Positions 26,076-37,267 of a stretch of 64,000 bases of DNA are shown here, one piece after another. The stretch is from NCBI RefSeq assembly GCF_034531395.1, contig NZ_JARVCO010000002.1, positions 496,001 to 560,000 of the forward strand, in the 5' to 3' direction. The position numbers and the translations under genes were made by a program. Within the stretch, counting starts at the first letter, position 1, and every line of letters starts with the position of its first letter. This DNA comes from Pontiella agarivorans. Lineage in GTDB: Bacteria > Verrucomicrobiota > Kiritimatiellia > Kiritimatiellales > Pontiellaceae. The notes beneath the pieces were generated by a model. It saw only the letters and a program-made list of their open reading frames with translations. It was not told the origin of the DNA and made no database searches.

Positions 26076-26267
26076 CTTTTCTCTTTTATACAGGCGACGA
26101 TACTCCGGCTGAAATAGAGACAGACGGTATTTCTTTTTGTCGGTTTGTAACCGATAGGACAAATGTCTGTGTTAGGATCATGTTAAATAATCAATGTTTT
26201 CTGGCATGTTGTATGCGTATATTGCATAGATGTAACCTCTCAAATAAAAAGGGTTGGCTTTTTGGAT

Positions 26268-26798
26268 ATGGCAATGTGCCGAAAGATTTTAATATTGACT
26301 GTAGTTTTGGCGTTTTGTGCTGTGGACGGTTTATTTGCACAGGGCAAAAGCAGTTTTGAAACCGGTGATTTTACAGGCTGGAATGTGCAGGGCAAGGGGT
26401 GGACGATTTATAGTCGCGATGCTTCCGATGGTTCTAAGTCGGCCCTGTGTACGGTGTCGAAAGGTGAGCCGGCGGGGGTGATGGCCTGTGCCAAAGTTGT
26501 GAAAGCCCAGCCCGGTTTTGTGGTCAAGGTGGATCTGGATCTGGCTGGAAAGGCGAGGCACAACAGTTCGCGGGTTAAAATTTCGGTGATCTGCGTGGAT
26601 GCCGGCGGCGGTATTCTGCAGGAAGTGGAAAAAACAGTCGCCGTACCTTCATCGGATTTTCATCGGATTTCGGTGCCGGAACTGATTGTTCCTGCAAAAA
26701 CAGCGGAAACATATGTCATGCTGATGGTCGAGGTTACGAAGACTGCCAAGAGTACCGAGTGGTGGCGTTTCGACAATGTGCTCATTCGTGTTGAATGA
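26268..26798 (+). CDS. Exported protein of unknown function, carbohydrate-binding-like fold
   Basis: About 176 residues. A signal peptide (RKILILTVVLAFCAVDGLFAQ) precedes a beta-rich domain starting FETGDFTGWNVQGKGWTI and ending STEWWRFDNVLIRVE. That pattern resembles jelly-roll carbohydrate-binding modules, where a final aromatic strand closes the sandwich. No catalytic motif is seen. An in-frame ATG two codons later (26274) is equally possible; neither has a well-spaced ribosome site. The next small gene starts in an ATGA overlap. Confidence 0.6.
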   Translation: MAMCRKILILTVVLAFCAVDGLFAQGKSSFETGDFTGWNVQGKGWTIYSRDASDGSKSALCTVSKGEPAGVMACAKVVKAQPGFVVKVDLDLAGKARHNSSRVKISVICVDAGGGILQEVEKTVAVPSSDFHRISVPELIVPAKTAETYVMLMVEVTKTAKSTEWWRFDNVLIRVE

Positions 26799-27007
26799 TC
26801 GATCCGGTTCACTTTTCTTCAATAGATCATATTCGTGCCTTATTTAATGTTACAGAAAACATAGAAGATCTCATTATGGGGCCTTGGGCTACCGGTGAAG
26901 TAACTGTGGTTACGCTTAATGACTTTGAAATGAGCGAAATCACCGAAACGGTATTTGATTCAGGGTCCGGTAAAATCTTCGTGAAACTGCATCTCGAAAA
27001 ACAGTAA
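26795..27007 (+). CDS. Small hypothetical protein coupled to the upstream exported protein
   Basis: A 70-residue acidic protein with no family I recognise. It has no signal peptide or membrane helix. The ATGA overlap with the upstream gene and a strong terminator 20 bases downstream support it as a real, co-transcribed gene. The sequence ends KIFVKLHLEKQ and is rich in beta-branched residues. Confidence 0.55.
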   Translation: MIDPVHFSSIDHIRALFNVTENIEDLIMGPWATGEVTVVTLNDFEMSEITETVFDSGSGKIFVKLHLEKQ

Positions 27008-27557: not shown

Positions 27558-30500
27558 ATGAAAAGATTACTGTTATTGGTGTCGTGTGCCTGGATAACGG
27601 CGCTTGCGACACAGGCTGCTGAAATATGGAGTGAGGATTTCAGCACGTGGTCTGATGGAGATATTAACGGAGTAAATGGCTGGGTGACTTCGACTAACGG
27701 CTGGACGAACAGCGTGGTTAACGGGGAACTGATGCTGGAGCCGGAGGGTGACCGAATTATGTATTCGACGAGCGGGGCTGATCTGGCCTTCGGCGAAAGT
27801 GTTCGGATTACCGTGGATTACCGTATTGGTATGTCCAGCGAACGTAAGCATAGCGGTTTATTCGGATTCGGAATTCAGACCAACACGATGGCCACAGCAG
27901 GAACTTCGGAAGAGTTGATTAATACGTACCTGTTCGTTTTCGGTCAGGAGGGGTCCATTCGTGAAGATGGTCAATTCAACCAGTTTCCCGACAGCCAGCA
28001 ATGGAACGGCCCGGGGACCTATGTCTTATCAGGCGCTGATCTTGGGTTGAACCCATACGGGTATTATACCAATGAAGCTCCGTATGACAGTGCGGCCTAT
28101 ATTGATCCCTTTTCGGACGATCTGCAGACGGTTTACACCATCACCAAATCTCATATTCAGGACGAATTTAATGTTTCTGTTTTAACGAGTAATAAATTGT
28201 CGGGTGTTACTTCGTCCGGCGCTGATTACGGTATTGCACGTTCCAATGCCTGGAATGCGTCTGAGCTTTACCTCACGCTGTACAGTGCCGGAGGAACGCA
28301 TGTGAGCAACACCAACTATATCCAAAAGGTGACTTTCGAAAAACTTGATGTTGCGATGGATGCACCTACAGGCGTTGGAGCGCTTGGTATGGATGGTCAG
28401 GTTGATCTCTCCTGGACGATCATGCCCGGAGCGACTCAATATGAAGTTTACCGTACCACTACTCCGGGATCGTATAGTGCGCCGCTGGCAACGGTTGGCA
28501 GTGAGGGATATTCAGATGCATCCGTCGTTAACGGAACGACCTATTATTATTCTGTTGTTGCCAAGTATGCCGGTGGTGACTCGGTATTTTCTGATGAAGT
28601 ATCAGCCACGCCGAAAACCATCTACAGCGATGCTCCGGTGTATTCCACCGATTTCAGCGGCATTAGCGGGGACTTGGCTGCAGATGCTGATTGGGTTGCG
28701 GTTTCCGGCAGCAGCAATAATGCATTCAATGTAATTTCGGACAGCGGAACCAATTGGGCGGACACGGTTTCGGTTTCCAACTTTTTTGATGAAACTGTGG
28801 GTAATGCAGTGTATGTGGATCGCCTGATGCGCAATGAAGCAGATGATGCCGTTGAGGGTTCGTTTGATGTGGTGGTCAGTGTGACGGCTGCAGGAACAGA
28901 TGATTCGGATCATAACAATCAGGGTGTGTTGAGTTTCGGTATCACCAGCTCCTCTACTGAAGCGCTGGATGCAGATAAAGCCATGATGGCCATGTTTTAT
29001 CTGGGCGTGCGTTTTGAAAACAATCTCTACGTGACGTTTGGTCAGGAGGGCAATGATATTGACAGTAATCGTCTGGCCTTCCTGGGCTGGAGTGAAGCCG
29101 GATGGAATCCGAAACCGCTTCTAGCTGTAAGCAAGTCCTATCTCGGAAATTCTGAGGCTCCACGTGATCTGGTCACAGATCTTCTGAATGTCAGCTGGAA
29201 AATCCGCAAGACGCGTGAGCCGGGCGTTTATCAGGCCTGGGCATCGTTGTCCAATACAGTTTCCGGTGTTGTTAACACGAGCTCCACTCTGATTGAGTTT
29301 GAAACCGATACCATGCAGGAAATGTACGATGCAACTGCCGGTGTATTTGCCATGGGGCGTCATCCCAATGCAAAAAAGGCTGAATACAATTCGGAACTGT
29401 TTGCCGCGGTCGAAAATGTGAGTATTGCACACTCGAGCGGGAATCTTCCGGACGTGATTGCTCCGACGGTAACCACAGTTCTGCCGGCCGACCGCTCCGT
29501 TACTATTGAATGGGATCCGGTGCTGGATGCGATGGGCGGATATACGTTGACTGTGGAAACGCCGGACAGTGAAACCTATGTGGTGGCGGATGGCATCACT
29601 GAAACTTCATTCACGGATTCACCGCGATGGAATGATGTGACCAATAGCTATACCCTGACGGCAAACTTTGATTCCGATCTTGCGCCGAATACGGCCAGCA
29701 CAAACTTTTCTGCTGCTCCGATCGGACTTGAAACGGTCTTTGCGATGGACGGAAGCTATGGGGCCTACAAAGTGGACTTCGTTGCAGACAATACCGTTGT
29801 AACCAATGCGGGAAATACCGTGCGGTATGTTGATTATCTGTCCTCGCCGCTGTTTGTAACGGATGAGAACGGGTATACCGGTCCCACGCTGTATGCCTTG
29901 CTGCAGCAGGATATTCATGCAAACACCGCGAATTTTTATGCGGAGGCCAATACCGCCGGAGGTGGAAAAATCGGTATGAGCACGTCGGGATGGAATGCCT
30001 TTGGTAACGGCCTGTTTTTCATGCCGGTGTCGGATATGGGATATGGCGAATCGACGCTTGATGCTGTAAATAACGCGCCGTTAAGTACGTATGTATATTT
30101 CGGCAGCTGGACCTGGGGGGCCGGCAACGGTTCCGTACGCGCCGCTGTTCGTAATGGAAGCACCTGGTATGTGAGTGATACGAAATATGCCGCCAACTAT
30201 GTTTCCGGCGGTGAACCGAAACCGGTGTATGTTTCGGACGTGGCTGCGGAAACGTGGTATGAGCTCGATATTTCCGATCCATCAGCCCATCTGGCTCCTG
30301 GCGCGACAACAGACGGAAGCGGGTTCACGGACGTCAATGCCATGGGCTGGTATTTTGACAATGCCGCTAATGCCTATGTCTACGAAATGGAAGTGAAGAT
30401 CTCCGGTGCGCTGGCGTCGTATGACTTCTGGGCACAGAACAGCGGACTGGTCAGTTCGAATTCGGCCGCAGGGCTTGACCCCGATGGCGATTTGATTGTG

Positions 30501-30812
30501 AACAGCGCTGAATATGCCTTCGGTGGCGATCCGCTGGATCCTGAAAATGTCGGGAATCTTCCGGTCATGGATACTTCCATACATTCGGCACCGGGAACAG
30601 GAGATGATTCGTTCGTGTATGTTTATCAGAAACGCAGGGATCCGGTCAGCGGTATCACTTATAATCTGGAATCTACCGAGAATCTTATGCTGGGCTGGGA
30701 TCCGGCCACCTTCACATCCACAGAATCCGTTCTGGATTATGAGTGGATGACGGTAACGAACTATATTCCGCTTATTTCCAATCAGCTGTTTATTCAATTG
30801 GATGCCCAGTAA
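27558..30812 (+). CDS. Large secreted multidomain protein with fibronectin type III domain
   Basis: A 1084-residue exported protein with signal peptide KRLLLLVSCAWITALATQAAE. A beta-sandwich N-terminal region is followed by a fibronectin type III domain at about 268-352 (APTGVGALGMDGQVDLSW, NGTTYYYSVVAKY). Further beta-rich segments resembling the N-terminal one (YSTDFSGISGDLAADADW) follow, then a second FnIII-like stretch near 640-710. It ends with a calcium-binding type block (LDPDGDLIVNSAEYAFGGDP) and a terminal beta domain. No glycosidase residues are evident, so it may bind or present polysaccharide. It opens the galactan locus and has AGGAG before its ATG. Confidence 0.8.
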   Translation: MKRLLLLVSCAWITALATQAAEIWSEDFSTWSDGDINGVNGWVTSTNGWTNSVVNGELMLEPEGDRIMYSTSGADLAFGESVRITVDYRIGMSSERKHSGLFGFGIQTNTMATAGTSEELINTYLFVFGQEGSIREDGQFNQFPDSQQWNGPGTYVLSGADLGLNPYGYYTNEAPYDSAAYIDPFSDDLQTVYTITKSHIQDEFNVSVLTSNKLSGVTSSGADYGIARSNAWNASELYLTLYSAGGTHVSNTNYIQKVTFEKLDVAMDAPTGVGALGMDGQVDLSWTIMPGATQYEVYRTTTPGSYSAPLATVGSEGYSDASVVNGTTYYYSVVAKYAGGDSVFSDEVSATPKTIYSDAPVYSTDFSGISGDLAADADWVAVSGSSNNAFNVISDSGTNWADTVSVSNFFDETVGNAVYVDRLMRNEADDAVEGSFDVVVSVTAAGTDDSDHNNQGVLSFGITSSSTEALDADKAMMAMFYLGVRFENNLYVTFGQEGNDIDSNRLAFLGWSEAGWNPKPLLAVSKSYLGNSEAPRDLVTDLLNVSWKIRKTREPGVYQAWASLSNTVSGVVNTSSTLIEFETDTMQEMYDATAGVFAMGRHPNAKKAEYNSELFAAVENVSIAHSSGNLPDVIAPTVTTVLPADRSVTIEWDPVLDAMGGYTLTVETPDSETYVVADGITETSFTDSPRWNDVTNSYTLTANFDSDLAPNTASTNFSAAPIGLETVFAMDGSYGAYKVDFVADNTVVTNAGNTVRYVDYLSSPLFVTDENGYTGPTLYALLQQDIHANTANFYAEANTAGGGKIGMSTSGWNAFGNGLFFMPVSDMGYGESTLDAVNNAPLSTYVYFGSWTWGAGNGSVRAAVRNGSTWYVSDTKYAANYVSGGEPKPVYVSDVAAETWYELDISDPSAHLAPGATTDGSGFTDVNAMGWYFDNAANAYVYEMEVKISGALASYDFWAQNSGLVSSNSAAGLDPDGDLIVNSAEYAFGGDPLDPENVGNLPVMDTSIHSAPGTGDDSFVYVYQKRRDPVSGITYNLESTENLMLGWDPATFTSTESVLDYEWMTVTNYIPLISNQLFIQLDAQ
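28241..28255. repeat. 15-bp dyad copy inside the FnIII gene
   Basis: TTCCAATGCCTGGAA, exact in the TTCCA-N5-TGGAA core. It is the last copy before a gap of more than 10 kb that spans the polysaccharidase genes. Confidence 0.65.
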
Positions 30813-30843
30813 ACATCGGTACGCGGAAATATAAGAAACAGGG

Positions 30844-30869
30844 AAAACCCCGCTGCGGCGGGGTTTTTC
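30844..30869 (+). terminator. Terminator between the FnIII gene and GH86
   Basis: AAAACCCCGC pairs with GCGGGGTTTT across a short loop, then T. It separates the first gene of the locus from the polysaccharidases, or attenuates read-through. Confidence 0.85.
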
Positions 30870-30896
30870 TCTATATAGAATGAAGAGGAATTAATA

Positions 30897-33800
30897 ATGA
30901 GGTATCGGAAGCGGCTATTGCTGTTCGTGTTTGCGGCAGCACGGGTTTGGGGGACATCTGTACTGGAAATCGGATTTTCGGACTCGGAGGGATTTTTCGA
31001 CGGCACCTCCGTGAATACGATTCAGGGGATGAGTGCCCAGCTCGGCTGGATTGCGGAAGATACCGCAGGCATTGGATATATGGTTTGCACCAGCAGTTAT
31101 AACCGGGCGCAGAATTATGCCGGTTACACGCTGGAAAAAGGTGAGTCGGTGATTATTGAAACCACATTGCGGCTGCAGGGCGATCGTTCGGCGTTTTCCG
31201 CAAAAGATCTGTTCAGAATCGGGTTTGCTGAAAAGGCGCAGCATTCCGGGGCGGACACCCCCTCAATCGGGGCTGAGCTTTCTGCACGGGCCGACGGCGG
31301 CTATTCGGTGGGTCGCGACGCAGCGGTGGTGGTTATTCCTCCATCGGCTTCCAATGACTGGATTAAAATTTCGCAGGTGATCACCCGCAGCACGCTCTCC
31401 AATACATTCACCGGCATCGTCCATGCGTATAATGTAAGCCGGGATACGGATCTGGGAACCACAGCTTCTGCATGGACGCAATCGACTGATGACGGCTCGT
31501 GGGGCGGAACCATGCGTCCGGGTTTCCGGGCGTGGAATTTATCGTTTCCGGTTGAGTTGCAGGTGGACCACTGGAAGGTCTATACGCAGGCGGCTGCAGA
31601 GCCGCCGCTGGAAACCGAACCGGTTCATCTGCTGATTGATCCGGAGGTGAGTGTGGCCATTGGAGGGCACCTTGAGCTCGACCGCCGGAAATTTATTAAC
31701 CTGAGCGATGCCGGCCGTAAGTTTGAAACAAGGACGAACAATGATGCTCAGGAAACCTATTATATTGAAGAGCTAGGGATGAACTTCGGCCGCGAACTGG
31801 GCGGCGCATACGGAACAACCGGATGGAGCAGCGCGGTTCGTGAGGATTCAGAGAATCCCGGACAGGTAGACATAGCCTATCTAACGAATAACCTGAGGGC
31901 TGATAATGGCGGCAGTTCCGCCTGGATGATGGATTCATTCAATCCGAATCTGGATGTGGCCACGCACGACCGATACGGAAGTGTTCCTGATTTTATGGAT
32001 GCCTGGTATGCAGAAGGAGACAGTGCCAATCATTTACATGCGGTGAATATCAATGCCTATGCGGAATATGTCGCCGCGGTTCTGGAATATGGCTACACCG
32101 ATTGGACGCGCCCGAAAACGTATGAAATTGTGAATGAGCCGAATTGGCGGGTCTGGCGCGATCAGCGTTTTGCCGATCTTCATACTGCCGTTAAAAATCA
32201 TGTTCAATCCAATGGGCTGGATGTGGCGGTGGGCGGCCCCTGCATGTCGGTCGGCTATTTTTATAAAAACAACTATCAGAATTTCGGGCTCGATACGTTT
32301 ATGGCCAATACCGGCTGCGATCTCGATTTTTATTCGTTCCATATTTATGACTACATGAGTTTCGATACGAATAAGAACGATTTTGTCGGGCGGGTTTCCA
32401 CGGGGCTGCCTATTGAAGGGGTGCTGGATATGGTGGAAAACTATGCACTCAATACGCATGGAAAAACCGTGGATATGGTGCTGAGTGAGCACGGGGGATA
32501 TATCTCGACCGATCAGGAAGGGGCACTGGATCTGATTGCCGATACTTATTTTCCCAGCAATTCATTTGCCGGAACGGTGTTTGAATGGGAGATGAAGCGG
32601 CGGTCGGTGAGTGAACATCTGGCGGTCAGCAGCGCCATCGCGAATACCTTGGCATTTATGAATAATCCCCATGTGGTGCGCAAAGCCGTTCCCTTTATTC
32701 TGCTGGAATCAGCGGGATGGAATCCTCGCTATTATTCAACACTGCTGGTGAAAGAAAATTTTGATAAAAACAGTGAGGTGTGGCATGAGTCGACCTATGT
32801 GAACTTTTTTAAGTTTTTCCGGAATGTGGAGGGGCGGCGCGTTCGCGTGATGCTTGAGGATCCGGATATTCAGACGCAGGCCTATGTCAGCGGAACAAAG
32901 CTGTTTATTCTGATGAATAATCTGGCGGATAGAGCGGACGCTCTTGCCCTGAATCTTCCGACGACCGGAATAGAAACGATTACATTGCGCCGCTTCGGCC
33001 GGAACACTGATTTTACGCCGTTTTTCACGGAGACACAGGTGCAGACGCTGGAAGGCCTGCAGATCGGCGCTCGTGAAGCATTGGCCATTGAGATAAACTA
33101 CAGTACCGGCTTTGCTGAAAAAATGCGTCTCAATGAAGTGCCGTACTATGGAGATCTGGTTCGGCAGGAATTTGCCGGAAGCAGAACATTCAATGTGGCG
33201 GTTCCTGAATATGCGCAGGCCCGTTCGGCGATGCTTCGTATTTCCGTGGGCCGTGATTCCGGATTGGATAATGATCTCGACGTGGTTTTTAACGGAACAC
33301 CACTGGATGTTCCGCTGGAAGACTGCGCCGATCGGCTGGATAACGGCAGTGAATACGGAAGTCTCAAGCTGATTCCGCTACCGGCGAATTTGCTGCAGGC
33401 TGAAAATACGATTCAGGTTTCTTTTCCGGGTTCGGGTATCGGCGGTATCGGTTCAGTAGTGATCCGGGCGGCGCTGGAGGAGCCGGATGTTCAGCAGGTC
33501 TATGCTGTAAACTGTGCCGGTCCGGAATACATCGCATCCGATGGTACGGTATATCGTGCCGACGCCTATTATTCCGGCGGTTCCGTCGGAATGGACAGCA
33601 CGTCCGACTTTTCAGGAACCGAAGAAGACACCCTCTATGTTCATGAACGGTATGGTGAAGATTTTTCGTATGCTGTGCCGGTACCTGACGGAGATTATAC
33701 TGTGACGCTGCATATGGCTGAAAATTGGTTCGATGTCACGAACGGCCGCATTTTCAGTGTGGACCTTGAAGGGGAAAATGTGATCAGCAATCTGGACCTG

Positions 33801-34298
33801 GTTGCGGAAGCCGGCCGCGCCGTGGCGTACGATCAGCCGTTCAATACCACCGTAAATGACGGGTCACTGGATATTGATTTCTATGCTGCGGTAAACCATG
33901 CCAAAATCAATGCCATTAAAGCTGTGCGGGCCGTTGCATCGGGGCCGGTGTATTCCGACTGGGTGCTGCAGCAGGGGCTCAGCCTGAGCAATGCTGTGAA
34001 AAGTGTGGATGATGACGGTGATGGATTTGATACCTATGCGGAGTTTATTGCCGATACTGATCCGCTCGATTCGTTGTCGCGTTTTCGAATTGATGAAGCA
34101 GGGGCGGAGGATTCCGGTTTCGGTATTTCTTTTCCGTCCTCCAGCAATCGCACGTATACTGTCCGGGTGGCGGGTGAACTGTCCGGAGAGTGGCAGATTT
34201 TGACCAACGGTGTTTCAGGCACTGGAAATATGCTCGATATCATCGATCCTGCTCTGAGTTCCAACCGGTTTTACCGTATTGATGTGGAGATTGAATAA
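30897..34298 (+). CDS. GH86-like beta-agarase/porphyranase with malectin domain
   Basis: A 1133-residue exported enzyme. After a signal peptide and a beta-sandwich of about 200 residues, a clan GH-A barrel runs from about 240 to 740, with the acid/base Glu414 in YEIVNEPNW and the nucleophile Glu531 in VLSEHGGY. This arrangement and the surrounding sequence fit GH86, whose members cleave agarose or porphyran. A malectin-type carbohydrate-binding domain at about 868-1010 (AVNCAGPEYIASDG) is followed by a DDDGDGFDTYAEF calcium loop and a C-terminal domain ending SSNRFYR. Exact specificity is not visible. Confidence 0.75.
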   Translation: MRYRKRLLLFVFAAARVWGTSVLEIGFSDSEGFFDGTSVNTIQGMSAQLGWIAEDTAGIGYMVCTSSYNRAQNYAGYTLEKGESVIIETTLRLQGDRSAFSAKDLFRIGFAEKAQHSGADTPSIGAELSARADGGYSVGRDAAVVVIPPSASNDWIKISQVITRSTLSNTFTGIVHAYNVSRDTDLGTTASAWTQSTDDGSWGGTMRPGFRAWNLSFPVELQVDHWKVYTQAAAEPPLETEPVHLLIDPEVSVAIGGHLELDRRKFINLSDAGRKFETRTNNDAQETYYIEELGMNFGRELGGAYGTTGWSSAVREDSENPGQVDIAYLTNNLRADNGGSSAWMMDSFNPNLDVATHDRYGSVPDFMDAWYAEGDSANHLHAVNINAYAEYVAAVLEYGYTDWTRPKTYEIVNEPNWRVWRDQRFADLHTAVKNHVQSNGLDVAVGGPCMSVGYFYKNNYQNFGLDTFMANTGCDLDFYSFHIYDYMSFDTNKNDFVGRVSTGLPIEGVLDMVENYALNTHGKTVDMVLSEHGGYISTDQEGALDLIADTYFPSNSFAGTVFEWEMKRRSVSEHLAVSSAIANTLAFMNNPHVVRKAVPFILLESAGWNPRYYSTLLVKENFDKNSEVWHESTYVNFFKFFRNVEGRRVRVMLEDPDIQTQAYVSGTKLFILMNNLADRADALALNLPTTGIETITLRRFGRNTDFTPFFTETQVQTLEGLQIGAREALAIEINYSTGFAEKMRLNEVPYYGDLVRQEFAGSRTFNVAVPEYAQARSAMLRISVGRDSGLDNDLDVVFNGTPLDVPLEDCADRLDNGSEYGSLKLIPLPANLLQAENTIQVSFPGSGIGGIGSVVIRAALEEPDVQQVYAVNCAGPEYIASDGTVYRADAYYSGGSVGMDSTSDFSGTEEDTLYVHERYGEDFSYAVPVPDGDYTVTLHMAENWFDVTNGRIFSVDLEGENVISNLDLVAEAGRAVAYDQPFNTTVNDGSLDIDFYAAVNHAKINAIKAVRAVASGPVYSDWVLQQGLSLSNAVKSVDDDGDGFDTYAEFIADTDPLDSLSRFRIDEAGAEDSGFGISFPSSSNRTYTVRVAGELSGEWQILTNGVSGTGNMLDIIDPALSSNRFYRIDVEIE

Positions 34299-34324
34299 TC
34301 ACAGGAAAAGGGAGTGATTTAACG

Positions 34325-37267
34325 ATGAGAATCTCAGTGTTAACTGCAGTTGTTTCGTGTTTTTTTCTGACCCATTCGGCGGAGTCGGCCATCACGGTTG
34401 TTTCAGATGATTTCAGTATCTATGCCCCGGGAGTTTCCATTGCCGGGAACTGGGATCCCAAATCGGATGGGGGAAGTCAGGAAGACCTTTTTACCGGCTG
34501 GAACAGTGAGTATGCGGTGCTGGATGGAGAGGCGGAATTGAATTATCACATTCCGCACCAGACCGGATTTACAATCGGATCCGGTGGGTCAGCGGTCATC
34601 CGTTCTGATTTCCGTTATGTCTATGCCGGCGGCGGAAATATAACGAATTACTTCAACAATCATATTTTCGGTTTGATGATTTCCACTACGCCTGACTGGG
34701 AGAGCGGATCGACCGAAGGGTTTTATATTGCTCAGCGTGGCGGGGCCATCGGCAACCGGCTTAATGATGACCCGTGGATTGAAGGGTGGATATCGCACAG
34801 TACGCTGGGGGTGAACACGGACAATACCGATACCAGTATTTGGTTTTCGGTGGAGTGGACCATTCGCGATGTGGGCGGGGCGTTGCAAGCACAGGCGGTT
34901 CTGACCGATGGAGATTCCGTAAACTATACCTCAACAGAAGAGGAACTCAGCATTCCGACAGGAACCGAGATTTTTGCGGGATACTCCACAGGCTGGAACA
35001 ATACCGGAATGAGTATCGAGGCATTCGGGAAAATATTGGAAGTGCATATGGACAACTTCTCGGTATGGATGGGCGATCCGGAGCCGGGGAGTGTTTATCC
35101 GTTCACTGATTCCTCTAATCTGACGGGCTGGATTGCCTATGAGCCGATGTGGGATGAATTCGACGGTTTTGTGCTGGATGCGGAAAAGTGGGAGCCGCTT
35201 TCGTGGGATGGACGAAAGCCGGTTTATCATGAATATAACAATGTGACCCTGTCCAATGGCGTTGCGGTATTGACCACCGACTGGAAAGACGGTCCGGTCG
35301 GTTCGGTATCGGAAAGTGAATATTCTATTTCATCGGGGTATTTTCAGAGTACGACGGTTCGTCGTTACGGTTACTTTGAAATCAAATGCCGCGCGCTTGA
35401 TTTTCCGATTATGACCACCTGGTGGTTGACCGGCGGCAGCAGCTCATTCGGTCGCGAAATTGATATGCTGGAATGCCCGTCCGGAGTCGAAGGGCGCAAA
35501 GATTACTATTCCTGTAATTTCCATATCTGGAAAACGCCGACACCGGAGGGCGTGGATGACAACGGAGGAACGTCCATTGCCGATCCAGAGCATTATGATC
35601 TGCCGTTTGATATGGTGGATGATTTTCACGTGTACGGGTTCGAGTGGGATAAGGACTCCTGTAAAATCTATATTGACGGCGTGCTTTACCGCACCCGTGA
35701 GACCGGAAGTTTTACGGTTGGTCAACGGCTTATGGTAGGGAATGAATACAACAGTTGGCTCAACGATATCGTGGAGATCAATTCCAACCTGCATAAATTG
35801 GGGACGTCATATGAGGTAGATTATGTCCGTGCGTGGATTAAGCCGGAAACCGATACGACGTGGTATGTCGATGGAGCCAACGGGGACGACAGTTATTCCG
35901 GGCTGAACTGGACCGAGGCCAAAAAAACGATTCCGGCTGCGATTGATGAAGCCTATGACGGTGATTCCATCTGGGTTGCGGGGGGATATTATCCCGAATA
36001 TCTTACTTTTTACGGTATGCATAATCTGAAGGTGTACGGTGGATTTGCAGTGGGCGATATTTCGATTGAAGATCGCGATTTTATCGAACATCCAACCCTC
36101 ATTGATACGCCGCCGGATGGGTATTCCGCAGTCAGTATAAAAGGCACTCAGGGCTTCCGGTTTGATGGGTTTACGGTTACGGGAACCACCGGAAATTATG
36201 AGCACGGCATTGATATCGAAGGTCCCTGCACCAATGTGGTTATCGCCAACTGCCGGACTATTGACCATAACCCCGCCAACGGTGGCGGAAGCGGTGCCTA
36301 CGTGGATGGCGTTGATGGGCTGGGACTGACGCAGGTTCGTTTTGAAAACTGCGAATTTTCCGGTAATCAGTCTTTCGGTCAATATGCCGGCGGTGCGGCA
36401 TTTGGTGCCCGGAACGGTGCGGTGGTGGAGATTGCAGATTCACAGATAATCCATAACGAAACATCAGGAACCGGCGGGTTCCTGCATATGCAGTGGGATG
36501 AGGAAAATACATCGATTTTGGTGACCAACTGTCTGATTTCCGCCAACACCAATATGGTTGGGCGCGGTGTGATTCGGCATAATTGCGGTACGGTTGAACT
36601 CGTGGACTGCACGATCATCAATAATAGCGCCGACGGTGTCGAATCCGATCAATGGGGATCACCCATGATTACAATTCAACGCAGTCTTATTGCAGGAAAC
36701 GGGGGTGAAGGCTTCTGGGCCAACCACTCGGATTTTTGGCTTCAGGATAACCTGTTCTTTGACCATCCGGACGGGCATGTGAATTATAACGGGGATAAAA
36801 GTACGGAATCGGCCATTAATGGTTTATCACAGGCTTCGGGGAATAGGGTGGGCGATCCAAACTCTATGTTGATCACCTATTCCGACAGCGATCTCGATGA
36901 AATGCCGGACTGGTGGGAAGTGGAAAATGAGTTGGATGTGACGGCGGATGATTATGAATCCGACACGGATAATGACGGATCATTTTCCGGGGATGAATTT
37001 ATTGCCGGAACGAATCCGCAGGATGCGGGAAGTGTTTTCAAGGTAAGCAGTGTTCCGGATGCCGGATCTTTTACCATTTACTTCGATGCCGAACCGGGGC
37101 GGTTGTACAGCATCGAAACCAGTGACGATCTTTCCGAGGAATGGAATCTGCTTACCAACGGGATTGCCGGAAATGGAAGCAGAATTGAAATTGTGAATGA
37201 ATTCCTCTCAAGCAACCGGTTTTACCGCGTAACAGCCGAGCTGAACCAAGGGGTCCAATCTAACTGA
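34325..37267 (+). CDS. GH16 glycoside hydrolase fused to a right-handed beta-helix
   Basis: A 980-residue exported protein. After the signal peptide (RISVLTAVVSCFFLTHSAES) comes a lectin-like beta-sandwich to about 255. A GH16 catalytic domain covers about 270-505, with the signature REIDMLE giving nucleophile Glu378, Asp380 and acid/base Glu383. The ExDxxE form with the beta-bulge is used by agarases, porphyranases and carrageenases. From about 513 to 840 a right-handed parallel beta-helix follows (WYVDGANGDDSYSGLNWTEA, then many short N/V/I repeats). A calcium block and the same C-terminal domain as the GH86 protein close it. The combination of two carbohydrate-acting folds in one chain is unusual. 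Confidence 0.8.
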   Translation: MRISVLTAVVSCFFLTHSAESAITVVSDDFSIYAPGVSIAGNWDPKSDGGSQEDLFTGWNSEYAVLDGEAELNYHIPHQTGFTIGSGGSAVIRSDFRYVYAGGGNITNYFNNHIFGLMISTTPDWESGSTEGFYIAQRGGAIGNRLNDDPWIEGWISHSTLGVNTDNTDTSIWFSVEWTIRDVGGALQAQAVLTDGDSVNYTSTEEELSIPTGTEIFAGYSTGWNNTGMSIEAFGKILEVHMDNFSVWMGDPEPGSVYPFTDSSNLTGWIAYEPMWDEFDGFVLDAEKWEPLSWDGRKPVYHEYNNVTLSNGVAVLTTDWKDGPVGSVSESEYSISSGYFQSTTVRRYGYFEIKCRALDFPIMTTWWLTGGSSSFGREIDMLECPSGVEGRKDYYSCNFHIWKTPTPEGVDDNGGTSIADPEHYDLPFDMVDDFHVYGFEWDKDSCKIYIDGVLYRTRETGSFTVGQRLMVGNEYNSWLNDIVEINSNLHKLGTSYEVDYVRAWIKPETDTTWYVDGANGDDSYSGLNWTEAKKTIPAAIDEAYDGDSIWVAGGYYPEYLTFYGMHNLKVYGGFAVGDISIEDRDFIEHPTLIDTPPDGYSAVSIKGTQGFRFDGFTVTGTTGNYEHGIDIEGPCTNVVIANCRTIDHNPANGGGSGAYVDGVDGLGLTQVRFENCEFSGNQSFGQYAGGAAFGARNGAVVEIADSQIIHNETSGTGGFLHMQWDEENTSILVTNCLISANTNMVGRGVIRHNCGTVELVDCTIINNSADGVESDQWGSPMITIQRSLIAGNGGEGFWANHSDFWLQDNLFFDHPDGHVNYNGDKSTESAINGLSQASGNRVGDPNSMLITYSDSDLDEMPDWWEVENELDVTADDYESDTDNDGSFSGDEFIAGTNPQDAGSVFKVSSVPDAGSFTIYFDAEPGRLYSIETSDDLSEEWNLLTNGIAGNGSRIEIVNEFLSSNRFYRVTAELNQGVQSN

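Follow-up and report, generated by a model that had tools for sequence, protein, structure and literature searches.

The window analyzed here, a stretch of 64,000 nucleotides from the genome of Pontiella agarivorans, holds three intact forward-strand genes whose products begin with a signal peptide and end in related C-terminal modules (Table 1). Two of them code for enzymes directed at algal polysaccharides. The second gene encodes a GH86-type enzyme with Pfam matches to Porphyrn_cat_1 (3e-15), BPA_C (4e-10) and Malectin (1.5e-29), and the third a GH16 enzyme matching GH16 (7e-12) and Beta_helix (1.4e-9); the product of the first, labelled FnIII, gave no significant match to a Pfam family. 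Read in frame, the C-terminal end of the GH86 protein carries DDDGDGFDTYAEFIADTDPLD, then EWQILTNGVSGTGN, then SSNRFYRIDVEIE, and that of the GH16 protein DTDNDGSFSGDEFIAGTNPQD, then EWNLLTNGIAGNGS, then SSNRFYRVTAELNQGVQSN, in agreement with the shared layout that the original prediction had described for these two enzymes. In the GH86 protein, this type A module consists of a calcium loop and a six-strand beta domain with the end FYRIDVEIE and reaches the last residue; in the GH16 protein, it lies 6 residues from the stop. The FnIII-labelled protein carries another form, type B, composed of a WxxxxGL motif, a calcium loop (DPDGDLIVNSAEYAFGGDP) and a longer beta domain ending in LFIQLDAQ, 1 residue from the stop. 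Upstream of these genes, a 70-aa frame (26795..27007, +), placed directly after a 178-aa secreted-like ORF (26262..26798), holds a decayed type B tail and looks like a gene relic.

Table 1. Features of the window and of other module-bearing loci. Loci outside the window are given by locus or contig handle.
Feature	Position	Strand	Details
Decayed type B module tail	26855..26998	+	A3 match 18 bits; 2 residues from stop
FnIII-labelled protein	27558..30812	+	1084 aa; signal peptide, type B module; gene intact
Type B module of FnIII-labelled protein	30414..30806	+	Residues 953-1083 of 1084; A3 profile 129 bits
GH86-type enzyme	30897..34298	+	1133 aa; signal peptide, GH86/porphyranase core, BPA_C, malectin domain, module; intact
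Type A module of GH86 protein	34005..34295	+	Residues 1037-1133 of 1133; A1 profile 109 bits
TSP3-type calcium loop of GH86 protein	34008..34046	+	DDDGDGFDTYAEF; direct sequence reading
GH16 enzyme	34325..37267	+	980 aa; signal peptide, GH16, right-handed beta-helix, module; intact
Type A module of GH16 protein	36959..37246	+	Residues 879-974 of 980; A1 profile 98 bits
DUF1800 proteins with N-terminal module	L061 7955-10003; L172, L143, L113, L138, L152		
Type B module directly before sulfatase domain	L096 369-2885	-	
Type B module directly before sulfatase domain	L055 5518-9699	+	
PEP-CTERM genes adjoining module genes	G000 C4:54796, C2:683156, C8:65902, C4:92083, C2:597420, C12:1172305, C10:839746, C7:225879		

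When the last 115 residues of the GH86 protein were searched against its own genome, they found the GH16 end with an E-value of 5.5e-19 and 36% identity, one of 23 other places matched at E ≤ 0.01. Chance likeness of the two ends is ruled out by this E-value together with dozens of genome-wide matches, and the comparison confirms at the sequence level that they are one homologous module, in which a TSP3-type calcium loop is followed by a predicted six-strand sandwich of about 75 residues ending in FYRxxV. Three profiles were used: A1, covering the type A calcium loop and beta domain, gave 71 matches in the genome; A2, the type A beta domain alone, gave 39; and A3, representing type B, gave 65 at E ≤ 0.001, part of them in common with type A. 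In type B members the loops read EY.FGGDP and the beta part is longer; profile-profile comparison of A1 with A3 showed the two types to be homologous (hhalign probability of 98.1%, E = 9e-14), bearing out the earlier view of the FnIII-labelled protein as having the loop and a more diverged tail. The beta domain is present as predicted, but its length, given originally as roughly 85 residues, is about 75 in type A and 95 to 105 in type B. Pfam and NCBIfam have models that recognize the loop and none for the beta domain, and searches of open-licence papers found the module described nowhere. The observation is much wider than the window, involving dozens of exported proteins and many Verrucomicrobiota.

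AlphaFold2 modeled the GH86 tail with a pLDDT of 93.7 as the loop with a short helix followed by six strands, of which the FYRIDVE strand is the last, and the type B tail folded similarly (pLDDT of 85). Foldseek matches were weak for both, with a best E-value of 0.02 for type A, whose FnIII-like matches ranged from 0.06 to 0.3, and of 0.003 for type B, to a cytokine receptor; a sequence search of solved structures returned nothing below an E-value of 0.04. In the loop half, PF18884 (Pfam TSP3_bac) matched 9 of 19 type A tails (best 6e-9), with no match to the GH86 tail of the window itself at E 0.1. Judging from its DxDGDG pattern, the loop probably binds calcium. These matches bring in a first alternative, namely that the module is a generic extracellular Ig/FnIII-like domain that carries a TSP3 spacer, has spread through domain shuffling and is devoid of a targeting role, which would stabilize proteins or bind glycans or other proteins and would owe its C-terminal bias to the mode of addition. 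The FnIII and Ig domains among the Foldseek matches, though weak, favor it, as do a faint resemblance of the module profile to chitosan-binding and F5/8-type domains and the occurrence of TSP3 loops in many other settings, such as the Amuc_1099-like pilus protein of this genome.

A link of the module to the NCBIfam pilus family Amuc_1099, indicated by weak matches in 14 of 19 tails, was rejected: because the Amuc_1099-like protein has two TSP3 calcium loops, the matches reflect those loops, not machinery. That protein is encoded in a row with a PilM-like gene and a membrane-anchored gene (L053 5209-8455, +).

To place the module within proteins, the surrounding DNA of this genome was scanned for reading frames with the beta part, giving 80 frames. 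The module was last in the protein, at most 12 residues from the stop, in 75 of them, and the distance to the stop was at most 3 residues in 64 and at most 2 in 58. The five non-terminal frames comprised a DUF1800 protein, two with type B and a sulfatase, a 209-aa frame and a TSP3-array protein, this last one cut by a contig end. Among proteins from the genomes of named organisms, the module was terminal in 83 of 90; six of the seven exceptions had it near the N-terminus, and the other is a Calx-beta protein. Five of these six carry the Pfam domain DUF1800, and the sixth (L123) has PA14 and GLEYA. If the domain shuffled freely, copies inside proteins should be much commoner than the 5 of 80 and 7 of 90 counted here, and the distance to the stop should not be almost fixed, which argues against the generic module; the near-fixed terminal placement instead favors the sorting or attachment reading.

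N-terminal, internal and tandem copies, which fit the generic module, nevertheless occur. Two proteins have tandem modules, and the two sulfatase proteins (Table 1) look as if a module-ended gene had been fused to a downstream sulfatase gene. Such copies indicate that any sorting role would have to be that of a folded domain, not of a linear terminal signal. C-terminal tags of other systems can work when placed internally (PMC11980579), so these exceptions weaken the sorting reading without excluding it. Mid-protein copies, which the original prediction had named along with cytoplasmic carriers as findings that would speak against it, are thus present in a minority, and no carrier looked cytoplasmic.

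Two further layouts were observed. In the module-bearing DUF1800 proteins across the phylum, this genome included, the usual layout is reversed, the module following the signal peptide directly and lying close to the N-terminus; these proteins also match PF18884. A Pontiella sulfatireligans protein (L115) contains three module copies about 203 residues apart, within residues 2000-2482.

The passengers are unrelated to one another, including GH86, GH16, subtilase, sortilin/BNR, beta-helix, CBM96, DUF2961, endonuclease/phosphatase and Hcp-like proteins, so that the idea of a common end on unrelated catalytic cores holds well beyond the window. A crude score detected an N-terminal export signal in 72 of 76 carriers, a figure that is descriptive only, since secreted genes are also abundant in the background sample. 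Of the four carriers missed, one is the GH86 protein of the window, in which the signal is readily seen by eye, and the other three are frames whose starts are doubtful. Essentially all carriers have such a signal, the point that the original prediction had proposed to check. By lipobox patterns, no carrier resembled a true lipoprotein, although lipoproteins were also rare in the background (3 of 151) and the contrast gave a P value of 1 with the stricter pattern. About 13 GH86-like paralogues exist in this genome, and only the window copy has a recognizable module; two close paralogues are lipoproteins, and the remainder have no such C-terminal extension. The closest GH86 homologues in relatives are likewise lipoproteins that lack the module, and a distant homologue (L221) has a module-like tail. 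By sequence, the same enzyme family occurs with either device, a predicted lipoprotein anchor or the module.

The carrier encoded at L060 1725-2747 (-) combines a signal peptide and a C-terminal module with an Hcp-like domain (Pfam T6SS_HCP, 1.8e-8).

PEP-CTERM, a short PEP motif followed by a transmembrane helix and a basic tail (PMC1569441), was considered and rejected as the identity of the module: motif, helix and basic tail are all absent from the three ends, and PEP-CTERM is carried by separate genes, with 27 matches in the same genome. The original prediction was right to set the two apart. Eight of the 27 PEP-CTERM genes adjoin a module-ended gene on the same strand within about 150 bp (Table 1), and the module genes adjoining small PEP-CTERM genes are mostly type B. 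The binomial probability of this adjacency is 2e-8 to 6e-5, depending on an assumed background rate that was estimated, not measured. The arrangement suggests co-transcribed pairs, and we count it in favor of localization, since it would connect the module with sets of genes for the surface or matrix.

The type A profile, with at most 17 matches counted per genome, matched 168 of 289 Verrucomicrobiota genomes, among them 94 of the 96 from the class of Pontiella, and the named loci with the module belong nearly all to Verrucomicrobiota, Kiritimatiellae or Lentisphaerae, with one labelled Solibacter. For a secretion route, this genome encodes GspD of the type II secretion system (T2SS), 390 bits above the cut-off, together with GspI-, J- and K-like genes (pseudopilins); among the Pontiella papers searched, signal peptides come up and a secretion route does not. 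GspD was found in nearly all of the 289 genomes. With strong GspD taken as an E-value below about 1e-60, it was present in 93 of the 94 genomes with at least 5 modules, and only one of the 57 genomes with weak or no GspD had that many. Within one family (f36), each of 9 strong-GspD genomes had at least 13 modules, compared to 0 to 1 in the 22 without strong GspD, and the association persisted in genome-size bins of 2 to 3.3 Mb. The link between module and GspD is a correlation uncorrected for phylogeny, and dependence is not demonstrable from counts. Because the T2SS is near-universal in the phylum, and 79 strong-GspD genomes have no module match, it is not a dedicated partner of the module; the dedicated secretion system that the original prediction had proposed to look for was not found, and what co-occurs is general.

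This bears on two further alternatives. A true dedicated sorting domain, with a receptor or translocon of its own that is restricted to Verrucomicrobiota, would fit the phylum-wide spread, the rigid C-terminal placement and the two parallel subtypes; given that no candidate machine was found and that internal and N-terminal copies exist, we regard it as improbable. More improbable still is that the module is, or is closely related to, a C-terminal domain of type IX secretion (T9SS). The similar size, the beta-sandwich at the extreme C-terminus, the many unrelated cargoes and the dozens of copies per genome are what such a tail would show, but the three proteins matched no Pfam or NCBIfam T9SS model at E-values up to 1, nor did 19 type A and 16 type B tails at up to 0.1, and no T9SS tail was among the Foldseek matches listed. 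Moreover, the non-terminal 5 of 80 and 7 of 90 copies show that placement is not strictly C-terminal, and SprA was not found in this genome, nor above the cut-off in any of the 289 Verrucomicrobiota genomes, although no control genome was positive either.

Our preferred reading, to which we assign a probability of about 0.45, is that the module is a folded, probably calcium-stabilized C-terminal domain for localization or retention of large exported Verrucomicrobiota proteins, acting after Sec export. Sec would carry the module-bearing protein into the periplasm, where the TSP3 loop may serve as a rigid spacer and the terminal six-strand Ig/FnIII-like domain would be recognized as a folded surface, either by an outer-membrane export step, most plausibly the type II system of this genome, or by a surface or matrix partner that would hold the enzyme near the cell. 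Terminal bias, diverse passengers, export signals, the lack of lipoproteins among carriers, a compact fold, class-wide spread and the GspD association support localization; non-terminal copies, a near-universal T2SS and the presence of the module on only about 1 in 13 GH86-like paralogues weaken it. We rate a generic extracellular module of Ig-like type as only slightly less likely than a localization domain. The sequences make the original proposal of a sorting or attachment signal reasonable without proving it: its C-terminal bias, unrelated cores and export signals stand, and the minority of mid-protein, N-terminal and tandem copies counts against it. A bolder form of the localization reading, which we find doubtful, would be a phylum-wide folded C-terminal sorting domain, comprising two subtypes and present in this genome in some 80 copies or more, read by the T2SS or a surface receptor and placing polysaccharide-degrading and other large proteins outside. 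Verrucomicrobiota such as Pontiella have hundreds of genes for attacking polysaccharides, and how these enzymes are divided among periplasm, surface and medium is the question addressed; a recognizable C-terminal domain would allow candidate extracellular proteins of the whole phylum to be listed.

Among known domains, FnIII and Ig-like domains resemble the module in predicted topology, with weak Foldseek matches to titin and fibronectin FnIII and to cytokine receptors (E ≥ 0.003), but show no significant structural or sequence relation to it, the module being short, six-stranded and attached to a calcium loop. The bacterial TSP3 repeat (PF18884) resembles the calcium-loop half; it is a 22-residue loop found in arrays anywhere in proteins, and the module adds a beta domain and C-terminal placement, neither of which PF18884 covers. 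The T9SS C-terminal domains (TIGR04183/PF18962) are C-terminal beta-sandwiches common to many unrelated secreted enzymes, as the module is, but they differ from it in profile, in its N-terminal or internal copies and in that no SprA was found in the phylum sample (with no control genome positive either). Like the module, PEP-CTERM/exosortase tags are C-terminal on many exported proteins and present in this genome, some as gene neighbors, whereas the module folds as a soluble domain and lacks helix, motif and basic tail. MYXO-CTERM and GlyGly-CTERM tags likewise stand at the C-terminus of diverse proteins, which arrive at the surface via the T2SS (PMC11980579); the tags are tripartite motif-helix-basic elements cut by intramembrane proteases, whereas the module has no membrane segment. 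If real, the phylum-wide sorting domain would be a counterpart, in the form of a soluble domain, to MYXO-CTERM and the T9SS tail.
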